A program made the translations under genes and the position numbers. DNA of 30,832 nt from positions 1 through 30,832 of the IMG/VR virus record IMGVR_UViG_3300020166_000077. One strand, 5' to 3'. The notes beneath the pieces were generated by a model. The model ran no database searches and was not told where the DNA came from. It was given only the letters and a program-made list of their open reading frames with translations. The stretch comes from a virus. Shown one piece after another: positions 1 through 21,736 of this stretch. Position 1 is the stretch's first letter; each line of letters begins with the position of its first letter.

Positions 1-52
1 CACGTTCATTTTATGTTTGTTAATCTTACCCACCGCATGGGATGTCAACGAC

Positions 53-469
53 TCAATTATCTGTTTTCTCATTCTCTACAACCTCTGGTTCATCTGTATT
101 CATAGTGCGATAGTATATCACAACTTCCTTCAGTTGATTTATATATCGTTTTATTTCCTGCATGTTATATGCCATCAACTCATAATCACCTACCGACATT
201 GCAACAAAGACTAATTGTCCTTCGTGTCGTTTCGCAATATCTTCTAGAAAAGTGTCAATGTTCTTGTCACTGACCACATACCACCGAGGATCTTTGAGGT
301 CAATCTGTCTAGGCATTGGGGGATGGATAATAGGAACCTTTATCTCTACCGTCTTAATCTCTACTGGTATAGGTTCTGGTACTTTACCCCAGTTACCTAG
401 TGTTGTACAACCACTACTTATCAGTGTTATCAATAACAGCAGTGTCGTTTTCGATACTGTCGAATACAT
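53..469 (-). CDS. Small outer-membrane lipoprotein, probable o-spanin (Rz1-like)
   Basis: Predicted lipoprotein of 138 residues. A hydrophobic signal segment (about residues 8-18) ends in a lipobox, LISSGC, with the lipidated cysteine at 21. A proline-rich stretch follows (about 31-53, PEPIPVE and HPPMPRQ), then a helical C-terminal half. Its start lies 56 bases inside the preceding gene, which encodes a membrane-anchored coiled-coil protein; an overlapping inner-membrane/outer-lipoprotein pair is the classic Rz/Rz1 spanin layout that fuses the two membranes at lysis. The lysozyme gene lies further upstream at 11309. At 138 residues it is longer than lambda Rz1. The lipoprotein call is firm; the spanin role is inferred from layout. 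Confidence 0.7.
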   Translation of the reverse strand: MYSTVSKTTLLLLITLISSGCTTLGNWGKVPEPIPVEIKTVEIKVPIIHPPMPRQIDLKDPRWYVVSDKNIDTFLEDIAKRHEGQLVFVAMSVGDYELMAYNMQEIKRYINQLKEVVIYYRTMNTDEPEVVENEKTDN

Positions 470-809
470 CTTTAGTTCCTCGGTTGATTCTTGTTTCTAT
501 CAGAGTCGGTTTTGCAGCTGCAAGTCGTGATAGGTTATGTCGTGCAAAGATTGCAAGGTATCGTTTAGACTCTGCCTCAATCTCTGCATTACGAGAGGAC
601 ATCGCATTCAATGCTTCGGAAGTCTTCTGTAGGTTATTCTGTAACGCTTCTATCGTCTTTACTTGTTCTTGTTCACGTAACTCTTGTGCCGCAAGAAGTA
701 CCTGTTGTTGTACAACTTGACCCAACAAAGGTTTGTGTATGAACTGATAGAATCCTGCAAACGTGATACCCATACAAAGTATCACTCCTAATAATATTTT
801 ACTGAACAT
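414..809 (-). CDS. Inner-membrane coiled-coil protein, probable i-spanin (Rz-like)
   Basis: 131 residues with one N-terminal membrane segment (about 4-22) and then a long glutamine/glutamate/alanine-rich helix (about 30-85) that should form a coiled coil in the periplasm. This is the architecture of i-spanins. The gene overlaps the downstream lipoprotein by 56 bases in another frame and overlaps the upstream glycosyltransferase by 11 bases. A type II signal anchor plus coiled coil fits a partner that contacts the outer-membrane lipoprotein. No sequence signature beyond architecture was recognised, so the function rests on pairing and topology. Confidence 0.68.
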   Translation of the reverse strand: MFSKILLGVILCMGITFAGFYQFIHKPLLGQVVQQQVLLAAQELREQEQVKTIEALQNNLQKTSEALNAMSSRNAEIEAESKRYLAIFARHNLSRLAAAKPTLIETRINRGTKDVFDSIENDTAVIDNTDK

Positions 810-1515
810 CGTGCCACGCCTTCTTTATATACGGTAAGTATTCCAATTCGTGTGGTTTTGGTTTACCACCACAATCCACAATCTTACAACCACTTGGAAT
901 ATATTTAGGGAATATCCAATTACCCAAAACCTTACTACCAAGATGAAACTTCAGGTTGAGTTTGAGGTTTTGATTGAACTCTTCGTCCATATAGTAGATC
1001 TCAGAGTAACCGCCTGGTTTCCATTCTTCGAGTAGACGACCTGTCCATACTTGGTCACCCCCATCATAGTCAAACAGTCTCCAACTATCCAAGTTGAACA
1101 ACTCCCAAACTTCCTGCATCTTACCACTTTTCAGAACCATCATCGAAGAACTGAACTTGTTATTTTTCCAACCAATAGCATCGGATACACATGCGACCTT
1201 AACAACTTCACTCTCTAGGGCAAGGATTGCCTCTCGTATCTCGTCATCAAAGTTCTTTATCAATACAGTGTCAATATCAAGATAGACAGCATATCCATCA
1301 TAGAATGAATCATATGCTTTCATCTTATTCCACCAACCTTTACCTGCACCAAAAGGTGGTTCGATGGTATTTGCGATATCCGAAATCTCATCTGGTCGGT
1401 CGGTGATGCACCACGCCTCCACTTTGTAACCACTCAACTCTTTGAATCGAGTGATCAACTTACGTGCGTATACCATTGGGTATTGATCTGTACATACAGT
1501 AATTAAGTTAATCAT
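799..1515 (-). CDS. Glycosyltransferase, GT-A fold, GT8-like
   Basis: 238 residues from the chosen ATG. The N-terminus INLITVCTDQYP and the acidic motif YLDIDTVL (Asp80, Asp82) are typical of GT-A enzymes that bind a nucleotide sugar through a metal held by a DxD motif. The residues before it (GKGWWNKMKAYD) resemble the acceptor/donor loop of GT8-like proteins. An upstream in-frame start would add 16 residues, but the ATG at 1515 overlaps the stop of the preceding GT25 gene as ATGA, so it is preferred. Donor and acceptor are unknown. It is the last glycosyltransferase of the cassette before the lysis pair. Confidence 0.78.
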   Translation of the reverse strand: MINLITVCTDQYPMVYARKLITRFKELSGYKVEAWCITDRPDEISDIANTIEPPFGAGKGWWNKMKAYDSFYDGYAVYLDIDTVLIKNFDDEIREAILALESEVVKVACVSDAIGWKNNKFSSSMMVLKSGKMQEVWELFNLDSWRLFDYDGGDQVWTGRLLEEWKPGGYSEIYYMDEEFNQNLKLNLKFHLGSKVLGNWIFPKYIPSGCKIVDCGGKPKPHELEYLPYIKKAWHDVQ

Positions 1516-2165
1516 GCGTCTACCAAGTGTATCCCTTTTCCATAGTTGTGTTTTGCTAAACAACCCTGTTGATTCTGAATAGTACTGAAAGAATCATCGA
1601 CCACTACAGGCCATGGGTAATACTCTTCTAACCAAGGGAAGTTCATTATATTAAGATAGATGTCTGTGGGTCGAGAATAGTCAGAGACCTTTTCTAGAAA
1701 CTCTTCTGCACCAGAAGGTCTGACAATATAAGAGTGTGCACCCTTAAAGTAATCTGCCTGTACTAACGGAGACGTACCTAGTGTCATCGGTGTCTTAAAC
1801 TTACCGTAACTAGGTTGTCCAATTGTCACACACTTATGGAATCCAAACAATACCGGAACACGACCAGTGAATATTGCATCGTGTTCTAATATCATCACAT
1901 CTTGTTTGGTCTCGACTGAATACTTCCATAGTGACATATGTGAAAGGAAACACGCAAGTGCATTCTCGGTCTTGGAATAACCGCCCTGAAACATATGAAC
2001 CTGAAGACCCGCATCCTTGACCATAGACTCGAAGTCTGGATGTCTAGGTGTTACTGCATACCACTTCTCAACTTTGATACCGTATCGTTTGGCACTTGCA
2101 ATACACCTATCCGCAGCTTGTTGGGATAGGTGATTGTCTTCAATCGTAATAACGAAAGACTTCAC
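1512..2165 (-). CDS. Glycosyltransferase family 25-like protein
   Basis: 217 residues. The central block ACFLSHMSLWKY (71-82) followed by MILEHDAIF (91-99) is the GT25 (LPS glycosyltransferase) signature: a Ser-His in the first helix and an acidic metal-binding motif, here EHD (94-96) where many family members have EDD. A later KGAHSYIVRPSGAEEFL block matches the conserved A-Y-x-I-s-x-x-G-A segment. The start is GTG directly after the TAA of the GroES-like gene; no nearby ATG exists. It ends in an ATGA overlap with the next glycosyltransferase. Substrate unknown. Confidence 0.8.
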   Translation of the reverse strand: MKSFVITIEDNHLSQQAADRCIASAKRYGIKVEKWYAVTPRHPDFESMVKDAGLQVHMFQGGYSKTENALACFLSHMSLWKYSVETKQDVMILEHDAIFTGRVPVLFGFHKCVTIGQPSYGKFKTPMTLGTSPLVQADYFKGAHSYIVRPSGAEEFLEKVSDYSRPTDIYLNIMNFPWLEEYYPWPVVVDDSFSTIQNQQGCLAKHNYGKGIHLVDA

Positions 2166-2435
2166 TTATCCGTCCACTTTCAACCGGATAAATTCGTACT
2201 TAATAATCGCCATCTTCTTACCATCAATCTCTACTGGCATTGCTTCTGACCAATTACAATATACCTTATCACCTGCTGCAATCTCTTTCTTATTTGCAAC
2301 TTCTAGTCCCATCGCAACAACACGAGCAGGTTTATTACCTGTCGTAATATCTGCGGAAAGAATCAGTCCACCGGCAGTAGTTGTTTCTTTTGCATCATCT
2401 TCTGTCAATAAAACATTATCGTGTAAAACTTTCAT
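2166..2435 (-). CDS. groES: GroES-like co-chaperonin (Cpn10 family)
   Basis: 89 residues, close to the usual Cpn10 length. It carries the hallmarks of GroES: an N-terminal strand KVLHDNVLL, a mobile-loop sequence ETTTAGGLIL (17-26) that docks on GroEL, a central GxV-like strand (ARVVAMG), the GDKVYC segment and a C-terminal strand with E-F-I. It should cap host GroEL, as T4 gp31 does for folding the major capsid protein. It is unusual in lying between two GT25-like genes. Its ribosome site AAGGTG overlaps the stop codon of the gene before it, and the next gene starts at its own stop. Confidence 0.85.
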   Translation of the reverse strand: MKVLHDNVLLTEDDAKETTTAGGLILSADITTGNKPARVVAMGLEVANKKEIAAGDKVYCNWSEAMPVEIDGKKMAIIKYEFIRLKVDG

Positions 2436-2440
2436 TCAAA

Positions 2441-3154
2441 TCACCTTGTTGTTGTAGATACAGTTCCCTGCACCTTAGTATAATATGGATACACCACTCG
2501 TATCCAAGGAAATAATTCACGACACATATACGCATCGTTGGGCCACATTCCATATTCCTTGACCTTCTCAAGTAACATAGATGCGCCATCTGGTTCTATA
2601 TAGTATGCACTGTTACCTGCAATACCTTGGGGAGACATCTCGCCCGGATCGTTAATACGTGGTGCGGGTTGGACATCTGGTGTAGAAGCAACGATCTGGT
2701 GAAACAATCCTGCTCGTCTTGTCGCACCTCTAGGATCATTCAACCCAACCAGTTTATATCCTTCCACGTCACTGACATCAAACTTTCGAGTCATGAGGGC
2801 ATCCGATTCAAATATAATTATAGGTTCGTTGATAGTCAGACATAGATCCCATAGACGCATATGACTGATCGAACATGCCTCTTTTTTCTCTTGATTCGAT
2901 GCGAGATACGCAGTCTTCATTATACCAGTCCGCAAATCCATGTGGTTTTCCGAAGGATCTTTGGGCCAGTTCCATCTATAGTTAGAAGTATTGAAAGACG
3001 TGAACTCTCGTTCTAGGTGAGACTGTATCGTCTTCGGTACAGTTCCCTCGAAGATGTTCAGATCGATATCACTTTCGGTCTTGACGATACTCTCAGACAA
3101 CCTCTCAACTGACTTCTCTTGTCCATCAATTCTTATCACATATGCTTTAATCAT
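2441..3154 (-). CDS. Glycosyltransferase family 25-like protein
   Basis: 237 residues. The N-terminus IKAYVIRIDGQ plus the block ACSISHMRLWDLC (93-105) and IIIFESDAL (112-120) match the GT25 pattern, with ESD (116-118) in the place of the acidic metal-binding motif. A later NSAYYIEPDGASMLLEKV block matches the conserved family segment and aligns with the GT25 gene at 1512. The protein should transfer a sugar from a nucleotide donor; donor and acceptor are unknown. The ATG overlaps the stop of the methyltransferase gene as ATGA, which suggests coupled translation. Confidence 0.78.
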   Translation of the reverse strand: MIKAYVIRIDGQEKSVERLSESIVKTESDIDLNIFEGTVPKTIQSHLEREFTSFNTSNYRWNWPKDPSENHMDLRTGIMKTAYLASNQEKKEACSISHMRLWDLCLTINEPIIIFESDALMTRKFDVSDVEGYKLVGLNDPRGATRRAGLFHQIVASTPDVQPAPRINDPGEMSPQGIAGNSAYYIEPDGASMLLEKVKEYGMWPNDAYMCRELFPWIRVVYPYYTKVQGTVSTTTR

Positions 3155-3720
3155 TTTCTTTTACACACCACTACTCTACTTGAACCATGTTTAGCTGTCA
3201 CGGTGAAGGCGACAACCTCTTCGAATCCTAAGTCATCTATAATCCCCAGAAACTCACCTTTACTTATCTGTAGGGGATCCATGCGAGATGAAACATTGTT
3301 GTCCCCAACCATCAACTCCACACAAAGAATACCTTCCTCGGTCAGTTGATCTGTCCATGTCTTCAAACACTTTTCTGGATAGTAAGAATGATCGAATGAG
3401 TTAGAGTACAATATATCAAACTTACCAACCCACTCTTCCTTTCTTTCATGAAAATCCCACTCAAACATATTAGAAAATTCATTCGCTGTCGGAGATATGT
3501 CGGTTCCTGTCACAGTCGCATCAGGGAAATACTTAATAAACCATTCAACTTCTCTACCATTACGTGCACCGTGACACAATATATTCTTACTGTTGGGGTA
3601 CATCTCGCACACCTTTTCAACAGTACTTTCACTACACCAGACAGCGTGTAACTTTTGTTTGTTCGCTGCTATCTGTAGTTTTCGATACTCTTCGTAATTT
3701 TCATAATCATACAACTTCAT
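3151..3720 (-). CDS. Class I SAM-dependent methyltransferase
   Basis: 189 residues with a Rossmann-type methyltransferase core. Motif I is a variant, ILCHGARNGREVEW (47-60); the end of the second strand carries the acidic residue in GTDIS; FDILYSNSFDH corresponds to the strand-4 motif and EEGILCVEL to strand 5. The glycine-rich loop (HGARNG) is less canonical than ExGxGxG but in the right place. It sits between two glycosyltransferase genes and overlaps both (ATGA junctions), so an O-methyltransferase acting on a sugar is a reasonable guess. Substrate unknown. Confidence 0.75.
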   Translation of the reverse strand: MKLYDYENYEEYRKLQIAANKQKLHAVWCSESTVEKVCEMYPNSKNILCHGARNGREVEWFIKYFPDATVTGTDISPTANEFSNMFEWDFHERKEEWVGKFDILYSNSFDHSYYPEKCLKTWTDQLTEEGILCVELMVGDNNVSSRMDPLQISKGEFLGIIDDLGFEEVVAFTVTAKHGSSRVVVCKRK

Positions 3721-4511
3721 ATCTTCTTCATCAACTCTTCTACGTTCTCACCTTGATTTGGTAACAAGTCTTTTAGAAAGAAGTGTACAAAGTGACAATC
3801 TTCAATCTTAGTGTTTGCACCATATAAACCATTCCACACATGACTCATCTTCTTGGTGGGTACATCATACTTCTTAATAAAGTAGTTGAGTAAAGTCTGG
3901 TCAGTTGACCACTTCCATGGCCCCAATCCATCAACAAAGTCCTTGAACTCCATACGAGTAATAAACTGTTTTGCGGTCTGACCATTCAAGTATGGTTTGA
4001 AGTTCTTACAGTTTAACACAATCATACCCATGTTGGCAAACTCATATCCAAGTGAGTTGGGAAAGAAATTTGCTACGTTGTAGTTTTGCAATTGTTCGTA
4101 CTGCATACGAGAGTAGTTTTGAATCTTCTGTTTGTACTTGTCGGTGATAGGCATCTCACGTTCAATCACTGCACCGAATGCATCCTCTGTACCAAAGTCT
4201 TCGAAGATGTTTGGTGCGTCTGGTCGAATGTAGATGTCTGCATCAATGATTGCAATCTGGTCATACTCATCAAGTAAGTCAAATGCATTCTCTTTCTCAT
4301 AGATAGGTAGAAACCCACCATGTTTCTGCCAACTCTCGGTACTACGGTTACTTGTGAAAGGGTCTGGTTTGACCTTGAGGATAGGTGTACGTTGAATACG
4401 ATGTTCGACACCATGACGGGTTGCGTACTCTGCAACACTTTCGATACATTTCGCATACAACTTAGAATCTATCTGTTTTCCCAGACAAACCTGATATATC
4501 AGTCTTTTCAC
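3717..4511 (-). CDS. Glycosyltransferase, GT-A fold, GT8-like
   Basis: 264 residues. The motif IAIIDADIYIRP (87-98) contains the DxD metal site (Asp90, Asp92) of GT-A glycosyltransferases. ENAFDLLDEYDQ before it and FANMGMIVLNC after it match the GT8-like pattern in which the second block forms the donor pocket. HVWNGLYG and HFVHFF near the C-terminus resemble the conserved His region of GT8. The start is GTG, overlapping the stop of the preceding 62-residue gene as GTGA. Substrate unknown. Confidence 0.78.
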   Translation of the reverse strand: MKRLIYQVCLGKQIDSKLYAKCIESVAEYATRHGVEHRIQRTPILKVKPDPFTSNRSTESWQKHGGFLPIYEKENAFDLLDEYDQIAIIDADIYIRPDAPNIFEDFGTEDAFGAVIEREMPITDKYKQKIQNYSRMQYEQLQNYNVANFFPNSLGYEFANMGMIVLNCKNFKPYLNGQTAKQFITRMEFKDFVDGLGPWKWSTDQTLLNYFIKKYDVPTKKMSHVWNGLYGANTKIEDCHFVHFFLKDLLPNQGENVEELMKKI

Positions 4512-4696
4512 AACTCATCCTCATATGCCAACATGGACACAATGGATGACCTTATAATGGCTTCGATTCGTTCATTGAGAGTATCATAGAATATGAACAT
4601 CTCAGAATCTTTGCGTTTATTATAGTCGTCCATTGGGTACCCAGTCAAGGTGAGTTCTGCGCCAGTACGATAGTGTTTGAATGTTATGTTATACAT
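4508..4696 (-). CDS. Hypothetical protein, 62 residues
   Basis: Small protein without a recognised family. It starts at an ATG three bases after the stop of the upstream glycosyltransferase and its stop overlaps the GTG of the next one, so the operon layout supports it as a real gene. An N-terminal beta-like stretch (YNITFKHYRTGAELTLTGYP) is followed by an acidic amphipathic helix. No cysteines, signal or membrane segment. Confidence 0.65.
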   Translation of the reverse strand: MYNITFKHYRTGAELTLTGYPMDDYNKRKDSEMFIFYDTLNERIEAIIRSSIVSMLAYEDEL

Positions 4697-4699
4697 TGT

Positions 4700-5317
4700 C
4701 TAACTCTTGTTATGTTTGGTCGTAAATCCGACAGAATAATCTTTTATATGTGAACACTTGTCATAATGAAAGTATCCATGCGCCTTACACACTTCCCAGA
4801 TCCAACCATCAGAGTTGACTCTAATACGATCCTCGCTTATTCTTATTAACACCTTTGCAACATCTGGTGTTATATAATATGCACCACCCGCAAGAGATGT
4901 ACGTCTCTCCTTGTGTATGTCTGGAGGATCATGAGCCAAACACGCCATAGGTTTAGTGTATATTGAAGGTTGAATATTCATAACCAATTCAATATCATGT
5001 TCACACACTATCATAGGAGTGTCAGTATCAATACATTTTTTCCAAAGATAGTAATGACCGTACCACACACACTTTTCAGAGACAGTGAACATTACACCAT
5101 CCGGAGTGCTTTTACTATGTTTGTTCCCAAAGAGCAAATCAAAATGATCTTTGTAAGTCTCGGGTGTAACACCTTCGAAAAAATTAACATCGAACCCAGC
5201 TTTCAACCAAGAAGGTAATGCAAGTTTTCTATAGTAATCGGAGATGGGATTCCCACTCATCACGATCATCCATACCGGTGGTTTAGAGTCATTCAAACTA
5301 AACGTTCCTATAATCAT
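4700..5317 (-). CDS. Glycosyltransferase family 25-like protein
   Basis: About 205 residues from the first ATG. The block CVWYGHYYLWKKC followed by PMIVCEHDIEL parallels the SH..LW and EHD motifs of the two GT25-like genes nearby, and SLAGGAYYITPDVAKVLI matches their later conserved segment. The first helix has GH in the place of the usual SH, a divergence worth noting. The start is uncertain: no candidate has a good ribosome site, and an ATG at 5269 would give a protein beginning MIVMSGN. The gene overlaps the end of the radical SAM gene by up to 20 bases. Confidence 0.7.
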   Translation of the reverse strand: MIIGTFSLNDSKPPVWMIVMSGNPISDYYRKLALPSWLKAGFDVNFFEGVTPETYKDHFDLLFGNKHSKSTPDGVMFTVSEKCVWYGHYYLWKKCIDTDTPMIVCEHDIELVMNIQPSIYTKPMACLAHDPPDIHKERRTSLAGGAYYITPDVAKVLIRISEDRIRVNSDGWIWEVCKAHGYFHYDKCSHIKDYSVGFTTKHNKS

Positions 5318-6305
5318 TAAGATCGAAAGAAGTTCCAATCATTTTCATTTCTGATCTTGAGTTATTAGTATACACCAATGTCTCCGGAGTGTCAAGTAGA
5401 AAATCACAATCTCTACAATAATCCGTGTATTCTCCAGTTCTATGAGACTCGCGTAGTGCAGAGTACTCTTCACCTCGAATAATTTCTTCTATCGTATTGA
5501 CGGATGTATGTCCGAGAACTGCTTCTTCATCCCGACCAAGTACTTGACAGCACGGATGAACTGCACCCCGATGACCATCCACCCCACCAGCACGGATAAC
5601 AACGTCAGGAGAAAAAGGACGACCACAAGTTTTGACATTACCAGTTCTAGCATTTGTTTCACCTATATCATATGCACCAGACCAGTTGTGCATTTTCCAG
5701 ATCTCGGTCTTACAACCAAGTTCTTCTACTAAGGCCTTGTACTGTTCTAGTTCTTGTTCAATATTATTATTGTCTGTAATCAGGTGGTATGTCTCCACAA
5801 CACAATCCGACCCAGACTCCTTTACATAATCCATCATTTCTTTTACATGTTTCTTGATCAACTCATAATTACTACCCCGAGTGTTATTCATCCACTCTTG
5901 ATACTTCTCTGGTGTAGAACCAACAAAAGAGAATCGGAAGAAGTCCAATCCTGCGTCCACACAGTCCTTCATGAATTGACCATGCATACGAAAACCATTA
6001 GAGAAGATGACTGCTTTTGCATCATACCTCTTAACGATTTTTATATATTCTGGTAGGTTACGATTCATGGTTGCTTCACCCGAACCATCTAGGTTGACAA
6101 CATTCAGTCCATGTCGTGCACAGTCTTGAACATTATCTTCGAACTCGATCAGTGACATCTTGGTTAAGAAACCTTTGTGTCTACCTCCGGTACGTTTATC
6201 TTGAGGACACATTGTGCAATCAAAATTACAGCCGCCCTGTACTTCAATTACCGCTCTGTCTATGTTTATTTCTTTCACTGAAAAATCCTCTCGCTTTAGT
6301 TTCAT
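5298..6305 (-). CDS. Radical SAM enzyme with SPASM-like C-terminal cysteines
   Basis: 335 residues. CNFDCTMC (Cys26, Cys30, Cys33) is the CxxxCxxC motif that binds the 4Fe-4S cluster used to cleave SAM. LDGSGEATMN corresponds to the GGE-like SAM-binding strand. In the C-terminal third, TCGRPFSP, HPCCQV and CRDCDF supply cysteines in the manner of SPASM/twitch domains that hold auxiliary Fe-S clusters. The enzyme should carry out a radical reaction such as oxidation, epimerisation or C-C bond formation, but the substrate is not evident. It lies inside the glycosyltransferase cassette, so a sugar or sugar-linked substrate is plausible; peptide substrates are also common in this family. Confidence 0.85.
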   Translation of the reverse strand: MKLKREDFSVKEINIDRAVIEVQGGCNFDCTMCPQDKRTGGRHKGFLTKMSLIEFEDNVQDCARHGLNVVNLDGSGEATMNRNLPEYIKIVKRYDAKAVIFSNGFRMHGQFMKDCVDAGLDFFRFSFVGSTPEKYQEWMNNTRGSNYELIKKHVKEMMDYVKESGSDCVVETYHLITDNNNIEQELEQYKALVEELGCKTEIWKMHNWSGAYDIGETNARTGNVKTCGRPFSPDVVIRAGGVDGHRGAVHPCCQVLGRDEEAVLGHTSVNTIEEIIRGEEYSALRESHRTGEYTDYCRDCDFLLDTPETLVYTNNSRSEMKMIGTSFDLNDYRNV

Positions 6306-7134
6306 GTTCTATTGCTTTTCTCTTGGTGTTACCTAACATCTCAGGGATATTATTCACCCACCAAAATATATTCATTTCTTCATTTTCATCGTGTGTAGTT
6401 CGTACACAATGAGGCGTATGATAACGTGTTATACCCTCATTACTTATAACTATCGTAGGTCTATATAAGTTACGAGCAATGTAATGCCACATACCATCAT
6501 AACATATGACTTGACGACACGTAGAGATATGATAGAGTGCTTCCGAAACAGGAGTTCTATAGGTCAATTCTGTTATATGTAATCCCGCCGCAACCAACTG
6601 ATTTATTATAACATCCCATTTGTCATTTGTCAACTGTCTTTTCCATGTTTTTGGAGTTTCTGCATTAAACAGCGGTCTCCATATAACAATCTTATTATTG
6701 TCAACTTTTCGGAATGCATCCTTCCGGAATATCCAATCACTGTTGGGAATATCTCCTCCTACCTCATCCGAATACTTTCCACTCTGAAACCAAAACCTAT
6801 TCTTCTTGGGTCGGTTTATGGCCATGACTCTGAGACTACCATCGTCCTCTCTGGTAACATCATCGTTATATCTCCAATCACTGTAACGTGTCCGTTCATT
6901 ATACACGTGTATGACCGTCACATCATCCTTTCTATGATAGAAGTTATGGATGTACTCTAGTCTCTCTATGATTGTTTCTGGATCTTCGAAGTGGTGTAGA
7001 TGGTCTTCTTCATGTTCCCAATGAAACTCTAAAGTAACTTTCTTGTTTTCTTTGTAAGAAAAGTTATGGGCACAATTAAGTGCCCACATGAAATCACCAA
7101 CTCCTGGCGTACCTCGCCAAGTAATAAGTTCCAT
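6244..7134 (-). CDS. Putative GT-B (GT9-like) glycosyltransferase
   Basis: 296 residues. The N-terminus ITWRGTPGVGDFMWAL resembles the glycine loop of heptosyltransferase/GT9-type GT-B enzymes. The C-terminal part, EALYHISTCRQVICYDGMWHYIARNLYRPTIVIS, matches the region where GT9 proteins have a donor-site D/G-x-x-H-x-A-x-x-x-x-x-P-T-I-x-x pattern. The match is partial, so another GT-B-like role is possible. Its last 62 bases overlap the start of the radical SAM gene, a long overlap. Its start overlaps the stop of the EF-hand gene as TAATG. Confidence 0.55.
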   Translation of the reverse strand: MELITWRGTPGVGDFMWALNCAHNFSYKENKKVTLEFHWEHEEDHLHHFEDPETIIERLEYIHNFYHRKDDVTVIHVYNERTRYSDWRYNDDVTREDDGSLRVMAINRPKKNRFWFQSGKYSDEVGGDIPNSDWIFRKDAFRKVDNNKIVIWRPLFNAETPKTWKRQLTNDKWDVIINQLVAAGLHITELTYRTPVSEALYHISTCRQVICYDGMWHYIARNLYRPTIVISNEGITRYHTPHCVRTTHDENEEMNIFWWVNNIPEMLGNTKRKAIEHETKARGFFSERNKHRQSGN

Positions 7135-7487
7135 TACTTATTCTTGTTACCGACTGCTTCCTTCGCATAGAACGCTGCAACAATCGCGGCAACAGATACA
7201 AAGTAAGTAGGTGCCATAGAACCTAACGTATTTGCTGCTTGGTCTAATCCTATCAAGGATGCCAGTACTACAGCGAAGGGATAAAGTAACATTCCGCCAA
7301 GTGCAAACCATGCCATGTTACGTTGTGCATCACGCATTGCATCTGCGTCTTCAAGTTCCTTTCGTTTGAACTCTAAGTGCATCTGTAGTTCTTGTTCGGT
7401 AATGTGACCATCACCGTCCGCATCAGCTCCCGCTAAAAACCCATCACTGTCTGCGGTAAGTTGTACCTTCTTTTTTTCTTCTGACAT
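7134..7487 (-). CDS. EF-hand membrane protein with two transmembrane helices
   Basis: 117 residues. Residues 22-33 (DADGDGHITEQE) are a complete 12-residue EF-hand loop with calcium ligands at positions 1, 3, 5, 7, 9 and 12. A charged helix follows (about 33-56), then two hydrophobic segments (about 58-78 and 88-110) and a lysine-rich tail. The two-helix topology is compatible with a holin or pore-like protein, but no holin family was recognised. Ribosome site GGAG lies 7-8 bases before the ATG. The calcium-binding call is direct from sequence; the role is unknown. Confidence 0.8.
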   Translation of the reverse strand: MSEEKKKVQLTADSDGFLAGADADGDGHITEQELQMHLEFKRKELEDADAMRDAQRNMAWFALGGMLLYPFAVVLASLIGLDQAANTLGSMAPTYFVSVAAIVAAFYAKEAVGNKNK

Positions 7488-7501
7488 TTTATTCTCCTAG
7501 T

Positions 7502-8002
7502 TTAATGTTCGTGTAATTCACTACCATGTATGTCCCAATTAAAACCGATAACAAGTTTCTTACTATCGGTTATCATAGGACTTCTGTGGGGTAACATCGA
7601 AGGGAATACTACAAGATCCCCTTCTTCCAAATCTATTGGTGTTCCTAATAATTGTGTTCCGTTTTCCGGATCTTCTAATACTACTTGAAGGACACCGGAC
7701 ATGTTCGCACCTTCATGGGTGTGCCAGTTGAAGTCTGCACCATGTTCACTATATTCTGCAAACCACATATTACCTATGCGTATGTCGGTACACTTCCAAC
7801 TAGACATGTAGTCCTCTAGACTTGACCGCACAGCATTCTCGAATACTTCCCAATACAAAGGTTTTGCATCAACCTTGTAATCAGAATGAGACATGTTAGC
7901 ATATTCACATACGTTGTTATCTTTTATCATTTCGATAGCAAGTAATATCTTGTCCTGAACACTTTCCCAATCATCAATTTTATATTTGCGTATATACTGC
8001 AT
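7502..8002 (-). CDS. 2OG-Fe(II) oxygenase-like protein
   Basis: 166 residues. NWHTHEGANMSGVLQV (His94, His96) and the later GDLVVFPSMLPHRSP (His139) followed by KLVIGFNWD match the double-stranded beta-helix iron site of the TIGR02466/2OG-FeII_Oxy_5 type. A hydroxylase acting with 2-oxoglutarate is expected. A longer reading from 8035 exists, but the ATG at 8002 overlaps the stop of the carbamoyltransferase gene as TAATG and has GGAG upstream, so it is preferred. A second, related oxygenase is encoded at 21737. The substrate may be a sugar, lipid or nucleobase; nothing in the sequence decides. Confidence 0.78.
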   Translation of the reverse strand: MQYIRKYKIDDWESVQDKILLAIEMIKDNNVCEYANMSHSDYKVDAKPLYWEVFENAVRSSLEDYMSSWKCTDIRIGNMWFAEYSEHGADFNWHTHEGANMSGVLQVVLEDPENGTQLLGTPIDLEEGDLVVFPSMLPHRSPMITDSKKLVIGFNWDIHGSELHEH

Positions 8003-9498
8003 TAGAATACTTTCACTCCGTACTTCTGTTCCCACAATTCTGCGTCATGTTCATCGTTGACCATAGGTCTTCCGCGAATGTTCAATGAGGTATTTAGTAA
8101 CATCGGAACTCCGGTTCTTCGGTGATACTCTTCGATGATCTTACGGAATATAGACGGACAATCTTTCTTGACTATTTGTACACGTGCGGTACCGTCTACA
8201 TGAGTGACTGACGTATAAGGATGTTTTGCTATAGAGGTGTATTGCATGTACTCATTCATTGGGCCCGAGAAGTATTCTTCTGCATACTCTTCTAGTATTG
8301 CGGGTGCGAATGGACGATACTTCTGTCTACGTTTGATTGTGTTGACCGTATCCTTTACGTCAAACCTCACATCCGCGATCAAAGACCTGTTACCCAGTGC
8401 ACGTGGGCCAAACTCCGCTTTACCGTTCGCCAGACCACACACATGATGTTCTAAGAGGTGATCGACCACTTCCTGTACATTGACCTCCCTATCTATGTTG
8501 TAACCAGAATATGGAGACCAAATCAGTTGATCCTTCCCAGTTTCCTTTGCCCATGTCATTGCAGCAGTACCGAGACTCGAACCAGAGTCAGTTGGTGCAA
8601 CTGCGATATGTACTTGACCCTCAAACAGTTCGTGTATCATTGAATTGGTAACAACATTCTGTGCACAACCACCAGAGTACACTAACTTGTTTCCGTGTTG
8701 TTTTGCAATATGCATGATCTGCATAATACCATACTCTGCAAACTTTTGAATACCGGCTGCGAAATCTTTATCTCCGTACTGTCCCAAGAAGTCGATTAGT
8801 TTATTTCGCATCTTACCAAATCCTACGAAACTCTTACTCTTAGGATTATCCATTAGTTCGGATGTACCAATCTCTGGTGCAAGGTCTGGTGTCTCTTCCC
8901 ACCAATCGATTAACCATTGTACCATGTCTGGAGGTGCAGTACCGTATGAAGACAGTCCCATGACGACATACTCGTCCTCAAGTGGACGTAAACCCAACGT
9001 TTTTGTTGCACTCGTGTAGACTAGTCCAATAGACTTGGGGTAATGCCATTCTTTGATTAGGTTGAAGTTGTGGTCGTAGATGACCGCAGTTTGATATTCG
9101 CCTGCACCATCGATAGACACCATAACAGTATCTTCTTTGTCTTTCCAAGGGCGGGTGTAGAATGCGGTTGCGCAATGTGATATGTGATGTTCGTGGAAGT
9201 TGTCATAGACAAGACTTTCACCGATTGGTATTTCTTCGTGTGTAGAAATATCTCTTTGGAGTGTTCTGCCCTTTAAACCTCGATAAGTATCTCGGTATTT
9301 TTCTCGAAGTGCATAGTCTTCATAGAATGATACATGATCGTTGTCGTTAACATATTCCCAGAGACTTTCGGGAATGATAGGGTCGTTCTTCCTCTTAGAA
9401 AAACGTTCGGCCTGTGAAGCGAACTCCACAGTACCGTCCTTGTTTATAATTGATAGTGCTGCATCGTGATAATACTCACTGAAACCAACGTAACGCAT
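8002..9498 (-). CDS. NodU/CmcH-type carbamoyltransferase
   Basis: 498 residues. The N-terminal Kae1-like half has the metal-binding HHISH (104-108), SIDGAGE (128-134) and SGGCAQN (274-280). The C-terminal half has FGPRALGNRS (362-371), YRPFAP and LNTSLNIRGRP, the core signatures of the NodU/TobZ family. These enzymes transfer carbamoyl from carbamoyl phosphate via carbamoyl adenylate to a hydroxyl on a sugar or antibiotic. The C-terminus is shorter than in many bacterial members. It starts with ribosome site GAGG, which lies inside a hairpin (9506-9524). Placement in a glycosyltransferase cassette points to O-carbamoylation of a glycan. Confidence 0.9.
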   Translation of the reverse strand: MRYVGFSEYYHDAALSIINKDGTVEFASQAERFSKRKNDPIIPESLWEYVNDNDHVSFYEDYALREKYRDTYRGLKGRTLQRDISTHEEIPIGESLVYDNFHEHHISHCATAFYTRPWKDKEDTVMVSIDGAGEYQTAVIYDHNFNLIKEWHYPKSIGLVYTSATKTLGLRPLEDEYVVMGLSSYGTAPPDMVQWLIDWWEETPDLAPEIGTSELMDNPKSKSFVGFGKMRNKLIDFLGQYGDKDFAAGIQKFAEYGIMQIMHIAKQHGNKLVYSGGCAQNVVTNSMIHELFEGQVHIAVAPTDSGSSLGTAAMTWAKETGKDQLIWSPYSGYNIDREVNVQEVVDHLLEHHVCGLANGKAEFGPRALGNRSLIADVRFDVKDTVNTIKRRQKYRPFAPAILEEYAEEYFSGPMNEYMQYTSIAKHPYTSVTHVDGTARVQIVKKDCPSIFRKIIEEYHRRTGVPMLLNTSLNIRGRPMVNDEHDAELWEQKYGVKVF

Positions 9499-9505
9499 AA
9501 ATATA

Positions 9506-9524
9506 CCTCATAGATTGTATGAGG
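9506..9524 (-). promoter_or_regulatory. Hairpin covering the ribosome site of the carbamoyltransferase gene
   Basis: Perfect 7-bp inverted repeat CCTCATA/TATGAGG with a 5-base loop, extendable by three A-T pairs past a bulged base. In the minus-strand mRNA the right arm contains the GAGG ribosome site of the gene starting at 9498, so folding would hide it. The structure is seen directly; a regulatory role is inferred. Confidence 0.45.
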
Positions 9525-9539
9525 ATATTTAGTCACATT

Positions 9540-10121
9540 TTAACCAACCAGTTTTTCGTAGATCTCTTTCCAGTTCTTCACGCAAGGGATAGTTGGGTGG
9601 TTCATGTTGAAACCATGTTCCATCAACACACTCTCTAGACCAAGTTCAACACCCAGTTCGGCATTCTCAGTCTTATCTTCTACCCACAGACATTCGGTGT
9701 CACGGTAAGGTTCTAAGGCTTCGTCTTTGTCATCACCACAACCAAGGATAACGAACTTCTCGAACAAAGTCTCACCGAACAACTTCTGAAGATTTAGGAT
9801 ACGCAACTTCTGCGCATTAGGATTGTCACTCAGACTAGTAATCGCATGGAACACATAACCATGTTCTTCGTGCAACTTCTTCATGTAATGCATTGCATCA
9901 CGTAGTGGGGGAAGGAACCCGACATGGGCACTCTCGTTAAACATACGGACTAACATCTTACCTGTCGCCTTGTCAATACCATAGGCTTCACTGACATCAT
10001 AGACTAGGTTTGTTGGGTCAGCTAACTTGTGACCGTGTTCGTTCATCCAGATATCGAATGCGTAGAACCAGTTAAGAACTACACCATCGATGTCTGTCAA
10101 TATTACATTTTCTTTATTCAC
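9540..10121 (-). CDS. HAD-superfamily phosphatase, 5'-nucleotidase-like
   Basis: 193 residues. LTDIDGVVLNW carries the DxDG catalytic motif (nucleophile Asp10, Asp12). HAITSLSDNP gives the Thr/Ser of motif II. The later CLWVEDKTENAELG gives the motif IV acidic pair. Length and layout fit small NT5C-like phosphatases. It may dephosphorylate a nucleotide or a sugar phosphate; the cassette context does not separate the two. The start is GTG, overlapping the stop of the 62-residue gene before it as GTGA. Confidence 0.75.
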   Translation of the reverse strand: MNKENVILTDIDGVVLNWFYAFDIWMNEHGHKLADPTNLVYDVSEAYGIDKATGKMLVRMFNESAHVGFLPPLRDAMHYMKKLHEEHGYVFHAITSLSDNPNAQKLRILNLQKLFGETLFEKFVILGCGDDKDEALEPYRDTECLWVEDKTENAELGVELGLESVLMEHGFNMNHPTIPCVKNWKEIYEKLVG

Positions 10122-10306
10122 TTTACTTCCTTACTTTCTAAATAATCAATAGTTTCGATAAATTCTTCAAGAACTTCGGGATATCTCACACCTAGAGTTC
10201 TCATCATAGATTCTAGGTAACCGATTGTATAATTTGGATTATCGTTATCCTTACGAATCAGTTCAATCATCTTTACAACAATGGCACCAGTTTCTACATA
10301 ATTCAT
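10118..10306 (-). CDS. Hypothetical protein, 62 residues
   Basis: Small, mostly helical acidic protein of no recognised family. An in-frame GTG three codons earlier exists, but the ATG at 10306 has ribosome site AGGTG six bases upstream and is preferred. It is the first gene behind the repeated promoter at 10339-10367 and its stop overlaps the GTG of the HAD gene, so it heads a transcription unit leading into the HAD and carbamoyltransferase genes. Confidence 0.65.
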   Translation of the reverse strand: MNYVETGAIVVKMIELIRKDNDNPNYTIGYLESMMRTLGVRYPEVLEEFIETIDYLESKEVK

Positions 10307-10338
10307 AATAAACACCTCTCTCTCTCAATTAGGTACCC

Positions 10339-10367
10339 ATTATCTCATAGTTAAAACAAGATGTCAA
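10339..10367 (-). promoter_or_regulatory. Sigma70-type promoter, copy 1 of a repeated phage promoter
   Basis: On the minus strand TTGACA (10367-10362), 17 bases, then GATAAT (10344-10339), preceded by AAGTG and with TATGA before the -10. The same extended sequence recurs at 14279 and 15128. It lies between the end of the glycosyltransferase gene (10375) and the start of the 62-residue gene (10306), giving a leader of about 25 bases. Confidence 0.75.
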
Positions 10368-10374
10368 CACTTAT

Positions 10375-11199
10375 TTACATTTGTTTTGGTGATAGTCGGA
10401 ATTTGTTTGAGTGATAGTGGTCTAGCATGAGGATCTTCCATCCTCCGCCAGTATAGTGACAGAACTTCGCCTTCTCGAAGAACTCTTCTTCTGTGGCGTA
10501 GTGGGGGGAATCATTCCATGTCTGGTCTATGGTGACCAGATCGAAGTCGTGTTGCATCAACTGACCAGAGATGTATGGTTGATCATTCATTACAGACATA
10601 TGGAATTCGGGTTTAGCGTAGAACCATTCTTTCCAAGGCATAAACAACTCACGTGCACGTAGACGTGCCTCGCGTGTCCATACAACCACACCGGTATTCA
10701 GTATGGTAATTTTGGATGGTCGGCTAGGTGGCATAGAAGGCACGACCGGAATGCCGTGCATCTGGAACTTGTTTACAAAGTCGAGATAGGTACTTTGTTT
10801 ATAATCCCAAGAGTTATATCCACCACCATCAGCGGTGACGATATCACTCTCAAGTACACCGAAAACATCTCCGTCTTCACATATGTCGAAGATGTTTTCA
10901 TCGGTGTTTACTACTATGTCGGTATCGGCAAAGAGTACCTTGTCGTACTTGTCGAACATCGGGTCGTAGATTACACGCAAACATTCAAATAGTATTGCAG
11001 TAGAATGGTCGTCTTTACAATACACCGCTTCATCGGAATAGTGATAATCCGCATCTACGTGATCTGCGTACTGTAAGAATGAATTGCGAGATATATCCGC
11101 ACACTCTCGATACACTTGACTTCTCTTTCTACCTTCGATATCACCACGTTCATCAACCTTGTCGTTGACGATCATGTATTGAAAAATCGCGTTTCTCAT
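10375..11199 (-). CDS. Glycosyltransferase, GT-A fold, GT8-like
   Basis: 274 residues. KVLFADTDIVVN (87-98) holds the DxD motif (Asp92, Asp94) that binds metal and nucleotide sugar; ILNTGVVVW and later HYTGGGWK fit the second donor block and the C-terminal His-Gly segment of GT8-like enzymes. It ends just before a promoter, so it closes the transcription unit containing the lysozyme and PhoH genes. The gene overlaps the basic 48-residue frame upstream by 47 bases, and its ATG has only a weak GAGAG ribosome site. Substrate unknown. Confidence 0.78.
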   Translation of the reverse strand: MRNAIFQYMIVNDKVDERGDIEGRKRSQVYRECADISRNSFLQYADHVDADYHYSDEAVYCKDDHSTAILFECLRVIYDPMFDKYDKVLFADTDIVVNTDENIFDICEDGDVFGVLESDIVTADGGGYNSWDYKQSTYLDFVNKFQMHGIPVVPSMPPSRPSKITILNTGVVVWTREARLRARELFMPWKEWFYAKPEFHMSVMNDQPYISGQLMQHDFDLVTIDQTWNDSPHYATEEEFFEKAKFCHYTGGGWKILMLDHYHSNKFRLSPKQM

Positions 11200-11299
11200 T
11201 ATCTCTCACTTTTCGTGTATCAGAGTTCCCATTCAAGGTCATCTGTTTATGTTTATTACGTTTCTTGTTTCTACTATCGTGACGACTGTACTTGGCCAT
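11153..11299 (-). CDS. Small basic protein, 48 residues
   Basis: The translation begins MAKYSRHDSRNKKRNKHKQ and is rich in Arg, Lys and His, the style of short basic proteins seen in many marine T4-like phages. It starts ten bases after the lysozyme stop and its last 47 bases overlap the glycosyltransferase start in another frame. No clear ribosome site is visible. A nucleic-acid-binding role would fit the charge but is only a guess. If the ATG is not used, the 100-base gap would be unexplained. Confidence 0.5.
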   Translation of the reverse strand: MAKYSRHDSRNKKRNKHKQMTLNGNSDTRKVRDNEKRDFSIHDRQRQG

Positions 11300-11308
11300 A
11301 CTAATTAC

Positions 11309-11755
11309 TTATACGTTCTCTAAGGTTACCATTAGTCTTTCTGCACGGTTTGTAACCTGTCGATGCCAGAGACTATCACGTCCCTCTACACCTGCACGTT
11401 TCCAATCACCTTCTGCAATTGCACCATTGAAGTTCTTGAACTTACTCAAACGAGTACGTCCCATATTGAACATCATATTAACAAGTACACCTTGTACTTC
11501 GTCTGGTAAGTCGTCAAAAGACCCTTGTCCGTATAAAGCGTGACACTCTGATATTGCTGTATTGAGGTCGTTGTCAAAACACTCTGCGACTCTTTCTTCG
11601 CTGATTGAGGTTCCGACTGGTTGTCCATGTTCTGGATCGGTTTCGAGTACGAGATGGCCGACACCAAAGGTTGGATAGCCAAGGTGGTCGTTATAGATTT
11701 CATACTTGACTCCTTCGTCCACTTTTAATGTTTCGAATACTTCTTGTCTGTTCAT
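11309..11755 (-). CDS. e: T4-type lysozyme (endolysin, GH24)
   Basis: 148 residues. KVDEGVKYEIYNDHLGYPTFGVGHL carries the T4 lysozyme triad at matching spacing: Glu14, Asp23 and Thr29 correspond to Glu11, Asp20 and Thr26 of T4. LVNMMFNMG and SLWHRQVTNRAERL match the conserved C-terminal lobe. The enzyme cleaves the MurNAc-GlcNAc bond of peptidoglycan at lysis. No signal peptide is seen, so a holin or other release route is needed. The ATG overlaps the PhoH stop as ATGA. Confidence 0.93.
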   Translation of the reverse strand: MNRQEVFETLKVDEGVKYEIYNDHLGYPTFGVGHLVLETDPEHGQPVGTSISEERVAECFDNDLNTAISECHALYGQGSFDDLPDEVQGVLVNMMFNMGRTRLSKFKNFNGAIAEGDWKRAGVEGRDSLWHRQVTNRAERLMVTLENV

Positions 11756-12435
11756 TTCTTTTCCTCTATTAGTTCTTTAGTCATTATATAGTCTCGCACG
11801 AAGTCCGAACGTACTATATCTGCCCATGTAAATTCTACTACAGTGAAGTTCTTCATCAACTCAAGTATCTCGATAAACTTCACGATACCTTTCCTATCAC
11901 CTTCTTTTACGAAGTCTGATTGATAATAATCACCACAGAATATGATCCGACAATTCTGACCAACTCTAGTAATGATACTATCTAATTCATGGAATGTCAA
12001 GTTCTGCATCTCATCCACTATGATAACTGCATCGTTGATTGTAGTTCCACGAATATGTGACGTTGATATAAAATCGACCGTCTTGTTCTCCGAAAGTTTT
12101 CGGTATGCTTCCGGATCATCGAATAGTTCCGCGCATATTGATTTGTAGGGTGCGGTATATGCATCCATCTTCTCTTCTAGAGTTCCTGGCAAGAATCCAA
12201 TCTCTCGGGTAGGTACAATAGACCTACAGATAACTACAGATGAAAACTGGTTACCTTTATCAAGTACAGTCTCTAGTCCAAGATACAGTGCACTAAAAGT
12301 TTTACCCGTCCCCGCAGATCCATTCAGTACCAAGTGCGAACCAGACTTGTAGGCAGAGAACACTTGTTCTTGGCCAGTAGTCATTGGATCGACTGTCAAA
12401 AGATGATCGATCTTTAACGTTTGTGGTTTTTGCAT
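11752..12435 (-). CDS. phoH: PhoH-like ATPase
   Basis: 227 residues, P-loop protein. Walker A is GSAGTGKT (39-46), Walker B is VIIVDEMQN (137-145), and the ICRSIVP and RIIFCGDYYQSD segments are PhoH family motifs. Phage PhoH proteins are common in marine viruses; an ATP-dependent RNA- or DNA-related function is suspected but not settled. It lies between an FmdB-like gene and lysozyme, coupled to the latter by an ATGA overlap. Confidence 0.93.
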   Translation of the reverse strand: MQKPQTLKIDHLLTVDPMTTGQEQVFSAYKSGSHLVLNGSAGTGKTFSALYLGLETVLDKGNQFSSVVICRSIVPTREIGFLPGTLEEKMDAYTAPYKSICAELFDDPEAYRKLSENKTVDFISTSHIRGTTINDAVIIVDEMQNLTFHELDSIITRVGQNCRIIFCGDYYQSDFVKEGDRKGIVKFIEILELMKNFTVVEFTWADIVRSDFVRDYIMTKELIEEKK

Positions 12436-12443
12436 TAAGTTCT

Positions 12444-12680
12444 CTATGTTTTGATGTTGTTATCTTTACCCGCACCTTTCTTAATGTTGCCTAGGTGTTC
12501 TTGCCAATCGCTACCAGCCATTGTCAATGCGGATTTGACTCCCGATGTTAAACCGGGCGCTTTAGTGAAACATCTATTTAGATGGGGGTTATCTTTTCGG
12601 TAGTCATCGTACTCTGATATTTTCATCATGACTTCGATTACTTCGCCGGTCTCATTATCTTTAAATTCATATATTGGCAT
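12444..12680 (-). CDS. FmdB-like small protein lacking the zinc-ribbon cysteines
   Basis: 78 residues. MPIYEFKDNETGEVIEV follows the start of FmdB-type zinc-ribbon proteins (MPIYEFxCxxCG), but aspartate and other residues replace the expected cysteines; only one cysteine (Cys37) is present. The C-terminal half is polar (SALTMAGSDWQEHLGNIKKG). Similar small proteins occur in T4-like phages with no established role. It ends eight bases before PhoH. Confidence 0.7.
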   Translation of the reverse strand: MPIYEFKDNETGEVIEVMMKISEYDDYRKDNPHLNRCFTKAPGLTSGVKSALTMAGSDWQEHLGNIKKGAGKDNNIKT

Positions 12681-12704
12681 AATTTATTATTGTTTTCCAT
12701 ACGA

Positions 12705-12725
12705 CACCCCCCGAGTGGGGGGGTG
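12705..12725 (-). other. GC-rich hairpin between two small genes
   Basis: CACCCCCC and GGGGGGTG form a perfect 8-bp stem with a 5-base loop. It lies downstream of the 53-residue gene and upstream of the FmdB-like gene. No T-run follows on either strand, so it is not a standard intrinsic terminator; an mRNA-stabilising or processing hairpin is possible. The rest of the 66-base gap shows nothing else. Confidence 0.55.
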
Positions 12726-12746
12726 AAGAGATACGGATCACCTTCC

Positions 12747-12908: not shown

Positions 12909-12938
12909 CAACACCTCGTTTGTTAGTTAAAGGGATGG

Positions 12939-21728: not shown

Positions 21729-21736
21729 GAGTCTAT

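Follow-up and report, generated by a model that had tools for sequence, protein, structure and literature searches.

O-antigen conversion of the gtrABC type relies on a flippase together with membrane glucosyltransferases. A different repertoire is described for the pelagimyophages, marine T4-like phages that encode several glycosyltransferases, among which GT8, a family typical of lipopolysaccharide (LPS)-core enzymes, is most represented; radical SAM cassettes differ between two of their genomes, the host-recognition cluster in the tail-fibre region holds only 63 of 162 LPS-type proteins, and the authors propose that the O-chain of the host is altered against co-infection (PMC7029224). In the Vibrio phage vB_VspM_VS1 (Straboviridae), ORF94–96 lie in a row and are named 'LPS heptosyltransferase', 'Arylsulfatase regulator' and 'Radical SAM superfamily', a likeness that is drawn from the names in the gene table alone (PMC10473537). 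Here, we analyzed a block of sixteen open reading frames (ORFs), all on the minus strand, at positions 799–11199 of a 30,832-nt stretch of viral DNA (IMG/VR record IMGVR_UViG_3300020166_000077, positions 1 to 30,832; hereafter, the window; genes are named as in Table 1). We propose, with a probability of roughly 0.42, that the block is an early operon that extends and decorates a glycan, and that host lipooligosaccharide (LOS) is a somewhat likelier acceptor than a virion protein.

Like the pelagimyophages, the window represents a marine T4-like phage with several glycosyltransferases. Compared with what is described for those phages, its block is a larger and separate module between the endolysin and spanin genes, and it contains a constant pair of GT9-like and radical SAM genes, a carbamoyltransferase gene and a conserved sigma-70-type promoter; neither 'carbamoyl' nor 'sulfotransferase' occurs in the main text of that article (PMC7029224). 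In a near-twin of the window, the 105-kb contig IMGVR_UViG_3300025626_000007, the block does not occupy the tail-fibre region: it lies at 3.7–14.1 kb, and kin of the large tail-region ORFs of Phage C48C1 lie at ~43–70 kb. Pfam scans covered 13 of the 16 block proteins and returned no gtrABC-type matches among them, although no dedicated search for such genes was made. The preliminary description of the window had singled out the block as the best candidate for an undescribed system; this holds only in part, because several glycosyltransferases and the idea of altered host LPS have been published for related phages (PMC7029224). In the open-access literature searched, we found no description of a module composed of GT9-like, radical SAM and carbamoyltransferase genes. 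What seems to be new is this particular module with its fixed GT9/radical SAM core, together with the evidence on its promoter.

The window covers part of the genome of a T4-like marine phage, in which genes for ribonucleotide reductase, a PhoH-like protein and lysozyme, among others, were read by eye. The portal, sheath, head and terminase genes of the near-twin contig are related to those of Phage C48C1, which identifies the contig as T4-like, and its major capsid protein is nearest to those of C48C1 (69%), Methylophilales phage Melnitz (61%), Stenotrophomonas phage DLP_6 (60%) and Pelagibacter phage HTVC008M (59%). Host assignment was attempted and yielded none; the record of C48C1 likewise names no host.

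Related loci were gathered via the radical SAM gene. Among pattern-matching IMG/VR stretches, 346 relatives of this gene were found, of which the best 80 were taken, and the set compared comprised 84 sequences (83 loci and the window), with ORFs called by a simple longest-first rule in the scripted comparisons. A copy of the window was excluded from the clustering of these 84, and truncated loci were kept, so that a missing gene may merely be cut off; for counts on 47 loci, those with a 4-mer overlap of at least 0.8 in the GT9-like gene were removed. Comparative genomics, which the preliminary description had proposed as a check, bore out a conserved gene order: the GT9-like gene lies upstream of the radical SAM gene in all 84 sequences, and order and strand were kept for all 13 gene pairs tested in every locus having both members (first copy per locus). 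The ratio of nonsynonymous to synonymous divergence (dN/dS) was below 0.4 wherever computable (four comparisons, some with dS near saturation). Given the fixed pairs and these ratios, the grouping of the genes is not due to chance, and the block is a module common to uncultured relatives. We also collected loci reciprocally, taking the best 80 for each gene and dropping matches that covered <25% of the query. Of the loci found by the GT9-like gene, 76/80 hold the radical SAM gene, as do 69/69 of those with 1.2 kb of downstream sequence; for loci found by GT8b, the corresponding figures are 70/80 and, with 4 kb of upstream sequence, 63/70. Since many contigs are common to the GT9 and radical SAM sets, these tests are reciprocal and not independent.

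Outside the core, the genes vary and recombine. Synonymous divergence between the window and one relative (L004) is 0.01–0.06 for GT25b, the GT9-like gene and the radical SAM gene and 0.51 for GT8b, and such jumps from gene to gene indicate gene-by-gene recombination, a pattern common in surface-glycan loci. Beyond GT8b, relatives carry in exchange genes for a glutamine amidotransferase, a cupin, a methyltransferase, an NAD-dependent epimerase/dehydratase, a TctA transporter, a HAD-nucleotidyltransferase fusion, a second radical SAM enzyme, a sulfotransferase or an FkbM methyltransferase. The multi-step decorated glycan of the preliminary description gains good support from the gene content, the fixed order and those added genes that would decorate or supply sugars (sulfotransferase, epimerase/dehydratase and nucleotidyltransferase). 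The same variability could mean that the interval between endolysin and spanins is a hotspot of unrelated accessory genes, each with a role of its own. The genes do recombine singly, GT8b occurs without the radical SAM gene in 7 of the 70 loci with room for it, and the GroES-like and EF-hand proteins look unrelated to glycans, the EF-hand gene lying ~8 kb away in locus L048. Against this stand the fixed order of the tested pairs, the shared position of the promoter and the GT9-like gene, which is never without its radical SAM partner where there is room; we therefore regard a mere hotspot as very unlikely.

Several of the exchanged genes deserve separate mention. At L026:12853–17882 and in similar loci, an inserted sub-cassette encodes a ferritin-like protein (weak match), an amidotransferase, a cupin, a sulfotransferase and methyltransferases. 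The relatives' glutamine amidotransferase made a phosphoramidate capsule pathway a candidate, since it matches gamma-glutamyl-CDP-amidate hydrolase best in NCBIfam, albeit at a score (E = 2.8e-13) far short of the cut-off; no such amidotransferase was seen in the block of the window, and the other enzymes of that pathway were not searched for. The TctA transporter at L070:12977–15438 is full-length (E = 2.4e-90), and the next ORF, which has a signal-peptide-like N-terminus and no Pfam match, perhaps encodes its binding protein.

We then consider how the block might be expressed. A sigma-70-type site (at most two mismatches in 12) lies between GT8c and the HAD gene in 33 of 34 non-redundant loci, in 15 of them as a perfect match; the 34 are the 47 loci less 13 that do not have both genes in order. 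These gaps contain 41 matches in 12.3 kb; the 850 kb overall have 452 coding-strand matches and 209 on the opposite strand. In some loci the gap is as long as 3.1 kb, and there the site is not near the HAD gene. With at most one mismatch, the coding strand of the near-twin contig has 4 sites in 11.3 kb of the cassette, 9 in 20.9 kb of the replication module and 3 in 54.9 kb of the virion module. At a looser threshold, sites in positions 1–13000 of the window were not enriched (39 versus 36.5 in shuffled sequences). The most enriched upstream octamer of the near-twin contig is TATAAATA, a T4-type late box (11 versus 0.5 expected); its 17 sites include, on the coding strand, 10 in the virion module, 1 in the replication module and 0 in the cassette, and it is absent from the block of the window. 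With one mismatch tolerated, no box lies before GT8c (0/39 loci), the GT9-like gene (0/46) or GT8b (0/35). The conserved sigma-70-type promoter, as predicted from these patterns, suggests early expression of the block in almost all of the loci tested.

The protein encoded at 6244–7134 is predicted to have the heptosyltransferase fold. Its AlphaFold model (pLDDT, the per-residue confidence score, 92) superposes on Escherichia coli WaaF and WaaC with a Z score of 11.6 (root-mean-square deviation 4.1–4.3 over 212–213 residues) and on TibC with 11.1, and Foldseek retrieved TibC (1.7e-4) and WaaC (2.5e-3). Other whole-length GT-B enzymes scored Z 9–10.4, and matches to one Rossmann half reached nearly the same level (MilB, 120 residues, Z 11.2). 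The GT-B fold is thus shared overall with the GT9 enzymes WaaC, WaaF and TibC, whereas sequence identity to them is ~10–13% and no GT9 family profile matches. The best Pfam match of the window protein is at chance level (E = 0.093), none of the 47 members of its family matches GT9 in Pfam (one DUF match at 0.0082), and the family profile found no match among PDB sequences. Because the fold match comes without a meaningful Pfam match, we label the protein heptosyltransferase-fold, not proven GT9. A search for cellular kin across 198 genomes from a single phylum gave one match, a phage-bearing metagenome-assembled genome (MAG).

Its partner, the radical SAM enzyme, is far more conserved, with a mean column identity of 77% versus 39% for the GT9-like family. 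It exceeds the cut-off of PF04055 (54.9 versus 29.5 bits) and also that of PF13186 (SPASM), and the CX3CX2C motif (C26, C30 and C33) is invariant in 37/37 non-redundant members. A full SPASM domain with two auxiliary clusters has a seven-cysteine motif; the present family has instead five further cysteines invariant in 37/37 (C227, C252, C253, C297 and C300), so a BtrN-like domain with one cluster appears to fit better. The C-terminal cysteine stretch aligns with that of BtrN, the segment by itself giving E = 0.032, and in a profile search BtrN (3.3e-5) and QueE (6e-5) matched about equally well. The nearest folds to the model are BtrN (Z 19.3), DesII (18.9) and BlsE (18.7), at ~13–16% identity and with Z values tied with ChlB and near MoaA; this similarity of predicted folds suggests a sugar-type substrate. 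Among the 25 NCBIfam matches listed, no family reached its cut-off. A tblastn search with the radical SAM and GT9-like proteins of the window against 50,697 phage records found only C48C1, and in genome contigs 2 of 20 stretches matching the radical SAM peptide pattern encode a relative; these two are taken to be phage contigs in MAGs. In a few relatives, an extra radical SAM gene with a weak B12-binding match lies between the PhoH and lysozyme genes (L016:1875–3584).

The nearest folds include enzymes acting on nucleosides, aminocyclitols and deoxysugars, and the carbamoyltransferase profile matches in PDB the novobiocin carbamoyltransferase, GdmN and TobZ, all from antibiotic pathways. Both would suit a pathway to a small molecule, that is, a free glycoside, a modified nucleotide or a glycosylated peptide serving as toxin, signal or cofactor, as in mycofactocin or the aminoglycosides. 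We consider such a product quite unlikely, given that enzymes of the GT8 and GT25 families mostly extend glycans and that no transporter match was obtained among the block proteins scanned, with TctA confined to one variant locus. Moreover, the neighbors of the radical SAM gene overlap it or lie within 10 nt in 69/84 sequences upstream and 75/84 downstream, in ORF calls that did not extend below 55 aa; the little room thus left for a precursor gene, within the same limit, also weakens the candidate role of a radical SAM enzyme acting on ribosomally synthesized and post-translationally modified peptides.

All three GT25 genes pass PF01755 (47.7, 45.2 and 38.4 bits versus a gathering score of 24). 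None of the three GT8 proteins reaches the PF01501 gathering score of 24.3 (GT8c, 21.0 bits; GT8b, 16.2 bits; GT8a, no match), and they merit the name 'GT8-like' only. Nevertheless, 15/34 members of the GT8b family (3717–4511) match PF01501 at E ≤ 0.001, and an Asp-x-Asp pair, the donor-binding motif of GT8, is invariant in all aligned members of GT8b (34/34), GT8c (36/36) and GT8a (8/8). Sequence profiles from PDB were uninformative for all three GT8-like families. The glycosyltransferase families of the block are typical of LPS-core enzymes. A spanin-like gene pair directly follows the block and, if correctly identified, implies that the host has an outer membrane; these families, the early-looking expression and this pair together make the LOS core the likeliest acceptor.

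We infer a single pathway for these enzymes, with a glycan as its product and host LOS, in preference to a virion protein, as the acceptor. In this scheme, host RNA polymerase would read the operon early from the sigma-70-type promoter before the HAD gene, the conservation of the promoter being computed and its transcription proposed. The radical SAM enzyme would modify a sugar or sugar nucleotide, for example by oxidation, epimerization or deoxygenation, and its heptosyltransferase-fold partner would pass the modified residue to the acceptor, the core oligosaccharide of the host LOS. The GT8-like and GT25 enzymes, acting in the cytoplasm, would lengthen a short glycan; the carbamoyltransferase, methyltransferase and 2-oxoglutarate (2OG) oxygenase would cap or decorate the chain, and the HAD protein would strip phosphate off a precursor. 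The infected cell might thereby present an altered receptor that keeps rival phages off.

A number of results weigh against this scheme. With two mismatches allowed, the cassette, replication and virion modules of the near-twin contig have 6, 22 and 23 sigma-70 sites, respectively, and the contrast with the virion module fades. Across the 47 loci, the block contains 21 copies of TATAAATA on the coding strand and a single copy on the opposite strand; this box precedes the carbamoyltransferase gene in 5/30, the EF-hand gene in 3/25 and the radical SAM gene in 1/47 loci, and it precedes the inserted ferritin-like gene c39, which opens the sub-cassette described above, in 8/8 non-redundant loci. 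When one mismatch is tolerated, a box is found ahead of the carbamoyltransferase gene in 10/30 and of the radical SAM gene in 13/47 loci, versus ~4% of random 55-mers. The block is thus probably transcribed partly late as well in some lineages, which favors a role in the virion. As for the enzymes, the best listed NCBIfam match of the radical SAM protein is a tungsten-cofactor maturase (7.2e-16, 58 bits versus a cut-off of 380), its model is of moderate confidence (pLDDT 77), and ChlB (Z 18.6) and MoaA (18.3), which modify peptides or cofactors, lie within about one Z unit of BtrN, DesII and BlsE. Flippase, polymerase and lipid-carrier transferase matches were lacking among the block proteins scanned, which fits extension of a core and equally glycosylation of a protein. 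A candidate rule that the block is never late, drawn from the lack of TATAAATA in the window, was rejected since relatives carry sites inside the block; some of them have TATAAATA where the window has ACTAAATA.

The late boxes bear on virion glycosylation in particular, in which an oligosaccharide would be built in the cytoplasm on a capsid, neck or tail-fibre protein and the variable periphery would diversify the virion surface. The enzymes look soluble by eye, the best fold matches of the GT9-like protein include TibC, which glycosylates a protein with heptose, and the embedded GroES-like gene could be useful in capsid folding, the role of gp31 in T4. The late boxes in relatives and the fading sigma-70 contrast led us to lower the weight of the host envelope and to raise that of the virion. 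We nonetheless hold a virion acceptor to be conceivable though doubtful: at one mismatch, the strongest promoters of the block are early-like, unlike those of the virion module, the near-twin contig has the block at a distance from its structural genes, and exact TATAAATA was found within 150 nt before 0/39 GT8c, 0/35 HAD, 0/46 GT9-like and 0/35 GT8b genes and before a single radical SAM gene.

The carbamoyltransferase, which passes the cut-offs of both PF02543 and PF16861, raises the question of DNA. H104, H105 and H108 (HHxxH) and D130 are conserved in 29/29 members, and HHxxH with an Asp is the metal site of NodU/TobZ O-carbamoyltransferases. If the block made and decorated a modified base, as the carbamoyltransferase of 5-hydroxymethylcytosine (5hmC) or the T4 glucosyltransferases would suggest, a base hydroxyl would be needed, and the PF00303 family supplies hydroxymethyl-dCMP or -dUMP. 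PF00303 was found in 0/16 related records (C48C1 is titled complete; the other 15 are possibly incomplete), with 9/14 controls positive, and ThyX was found in 6/16; 7-deazaguanine genes were not searched for. Tet_JBP matched 1/16 records, that of C48C1, >40 kb from the block, the control of that model being positive in 0/14. In C48C1 (OQ984149.1), the stretch 49583–53030 has the Tet/JBP-like gene followed by two large uncharacterized genes, and a DNA methyltransferase is annotated at 33480–34364; these may form a separate DNA-modification locus. According to the MetaGPA article, a NodU/TobZ-type carbamoyltransferase acts on 5hmC, the combination of carbamoyltransferase and thymidylate synthase is confined to modified contigs, and carbamoyltransferases of unmodified contigs lie beside genes such as glycosyltransferases (PMC8670742). 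That enzyme is of the same class as ours and probably phage-borne, but it is encoded with a thymidylate-synthase-type gene, which the 16 records lack. Thus, despite the known 5hmC enzyme, the early type of the promoters and the C48C1 genes, the lack of a thymidylate-synthase-type hydroxymethylase in the 16 records, most of them possibly incomplete, makes DNA hypermodification most improbable. Of the three targets named in the preliminary description (virion, host envelope or DNA), DNA is disfavored, the host envelope is somewhat favored by the early-type promoters and the virion is kept in play by the late boxes of relatives.

A more specific version of the LOS scheme, speculative and somewhat unlikely, would be that the GT9/radical SAM pair forms a phage-specific unit, which would make a sugar that is not known in bacteria (for instance, a heptose oxidized or epimerized by the radical SAM enzyme and later carbamoylated) and transfer it. 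Placed early on the outer-membrane oligosaccharide of the host, it might mark the cell as taken, with peripheral genes (sulfotransferase, methyltransferase and nucleotidyltransferase) giving versions particular to lineages. If the glycan scheme is correct, T4-like phages of a large, uncultured marine group would devote ~10 kb to a defined glycan chemistry that is switched on by the host's own polymerase, and the way in which phages control the surface sugars of cells in the ocean could be tested gene by gene. It would also offer a new radical SAM/transferase pair and divergent glycosyltransferase families, and adjacent GT9-like and radical SAM genes would be a simple metagenome marker for the module.

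The features of the block are listed in Table 1. All genes that the preliminary description named are present on the minus strand, and its view of them as mostly translationally coupled agrees with the 15 junctions, of which 9 overlap, 4 are spaced by 0–14 nt and 2 by 41 and 59 nt (start codons were set at the most upstream option, possibly too early for a few genes). Its seven glycosyltransferase-like genes are firm for the three GT25 genes, which exceed the Pfam cut-off; the three GT8-like genes are assigned by sub-cut-off or PHROG matches, and the GT9-like gene by fold. Similarly, the radical SAM/SPASM enzyme and the carbamoyltransferase lie above the cut-off, and the methyltransferase, 2OG oxygenase and HAD protein below it, the PF06941 match of the last to NT5C being weak. 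The GroES-like gene, the EF-hand gene, the two small ORFs and the spanin-like pair (53–809) had not been named.

Table 1. Genes and putative promoter elements of the block, from the first gene to the last in the direction of transcription (loci, number of the 84 sequences with the gene)
Feature	Positions	Strand	Evidence and occurrence
GT8-like glycosyltransferase c (GT8c), first gene of the block	10375..11199	-	PF01501 E 2.8e-4, 21.0 bits, below cut-off; 62/84 loci
Putative sigma-70-type promoter TTGACA-17-GATAAT before hyp65/HAD	10339..10367	-	11/12 consensus bases
Small ORF hyp65 (65 aa)	10118..10315	-	14/84 loci
HAD-type phosphatase, NT5C-like	9540..10121	-	PF06941 E 0.0039, below cut-off; 63/84 loci
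ACTAAATA, possible degenerate late box 35 nt before the carbamoyltransferase gene	9526..9533	-	Two mismatches; reached by ~1/4 of random 55-mers; weak alone
NodU/TobZ-type O-carbamoyltransferase	8002..9498	-	PF02543 2.4e-29, PF16861 8e-45; 58/84 loci
2OG-Fe(II) oxygenase-like, accessory	7502..8035	-	phrog_81 5.7e-18; PF13759 1.6e-5, just below cut-off; 21/84 loci
EF-hand protein, hydrophobic C-terminal half	7134..7487	-	Weak EF-hand matches; alignment n = 22; 48/84 loci
Heptosyltransferase-fold (GT-B, 'GT9-like') protein	6244..7134	-	Fold match; 84/84 loci
Radical SAM enzyme, BtrN-like C-terminal cysteine domain	5298..6305	-	PF04055 1.6e-14, PF13186 9.6e-8
GT25-like glycosyltransferase c (GT25c)	4700..5338	-	PF01755 1.6e-9
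Small ORF (62 aa)	4508..4696	-	8/84 loci
GT8-like glycosyltransferase b (GT8b)	3717..4511	-	PF01501 16.2 bits, below cut-off; 64/84 loci
SAM-dependent methyltransferase-like, accessory	3151..3720	-	PF08242 1.5e-4, below cut-off; 13/84 loci
GT25-like glycosyltransferase b (GT25b)	2441..3154	-	PF01755 1.3e-11
GroES-like co-chaperonin, between two GT25 genes	2166..2435	-	By eye from sequence, without family search
GT25-like glycosyltransferase a (GT25a)	1512..2165	-	PF01755 2.2e-12
GT8-like glycosyltransferase a (GT8a), last gene ahead of the spanin-like pair	799..1563	-	phrog_1962 'glycosyltransferase' 7.5e-9; no Pfam match

Several relatives retain the GroES-like gene between or next to GT25 genes, and it may be the counterpart of T4 gp31. 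Kin of the EF-hand gene were found at the DNA level in Melnitz, beside baseplate hub genes, and in Roseobacter phage CRP-207, directly 3΄ of a putative lysozyme gene; the protein is possibly a calcium-binding holin and perhaps a lysis gene product outside the glycan pathway. Elsewhere in the window, at 20509–24183, a second similar gene set encodes a methyltransferase and a 2OG oxygenase above the Pfam cut-off, along with a CxxCxxCC protein (weak match) and the product of a GT2-like gene, whose Pfam match is at chance level. The spanin-like pair directly after the block consists of overlapping ORFs that by eye resemble an inner-membrane protein (414–809) and an outer-membrane lipoprotein (53–469); the two occur together in 21 loci, always in the same order.

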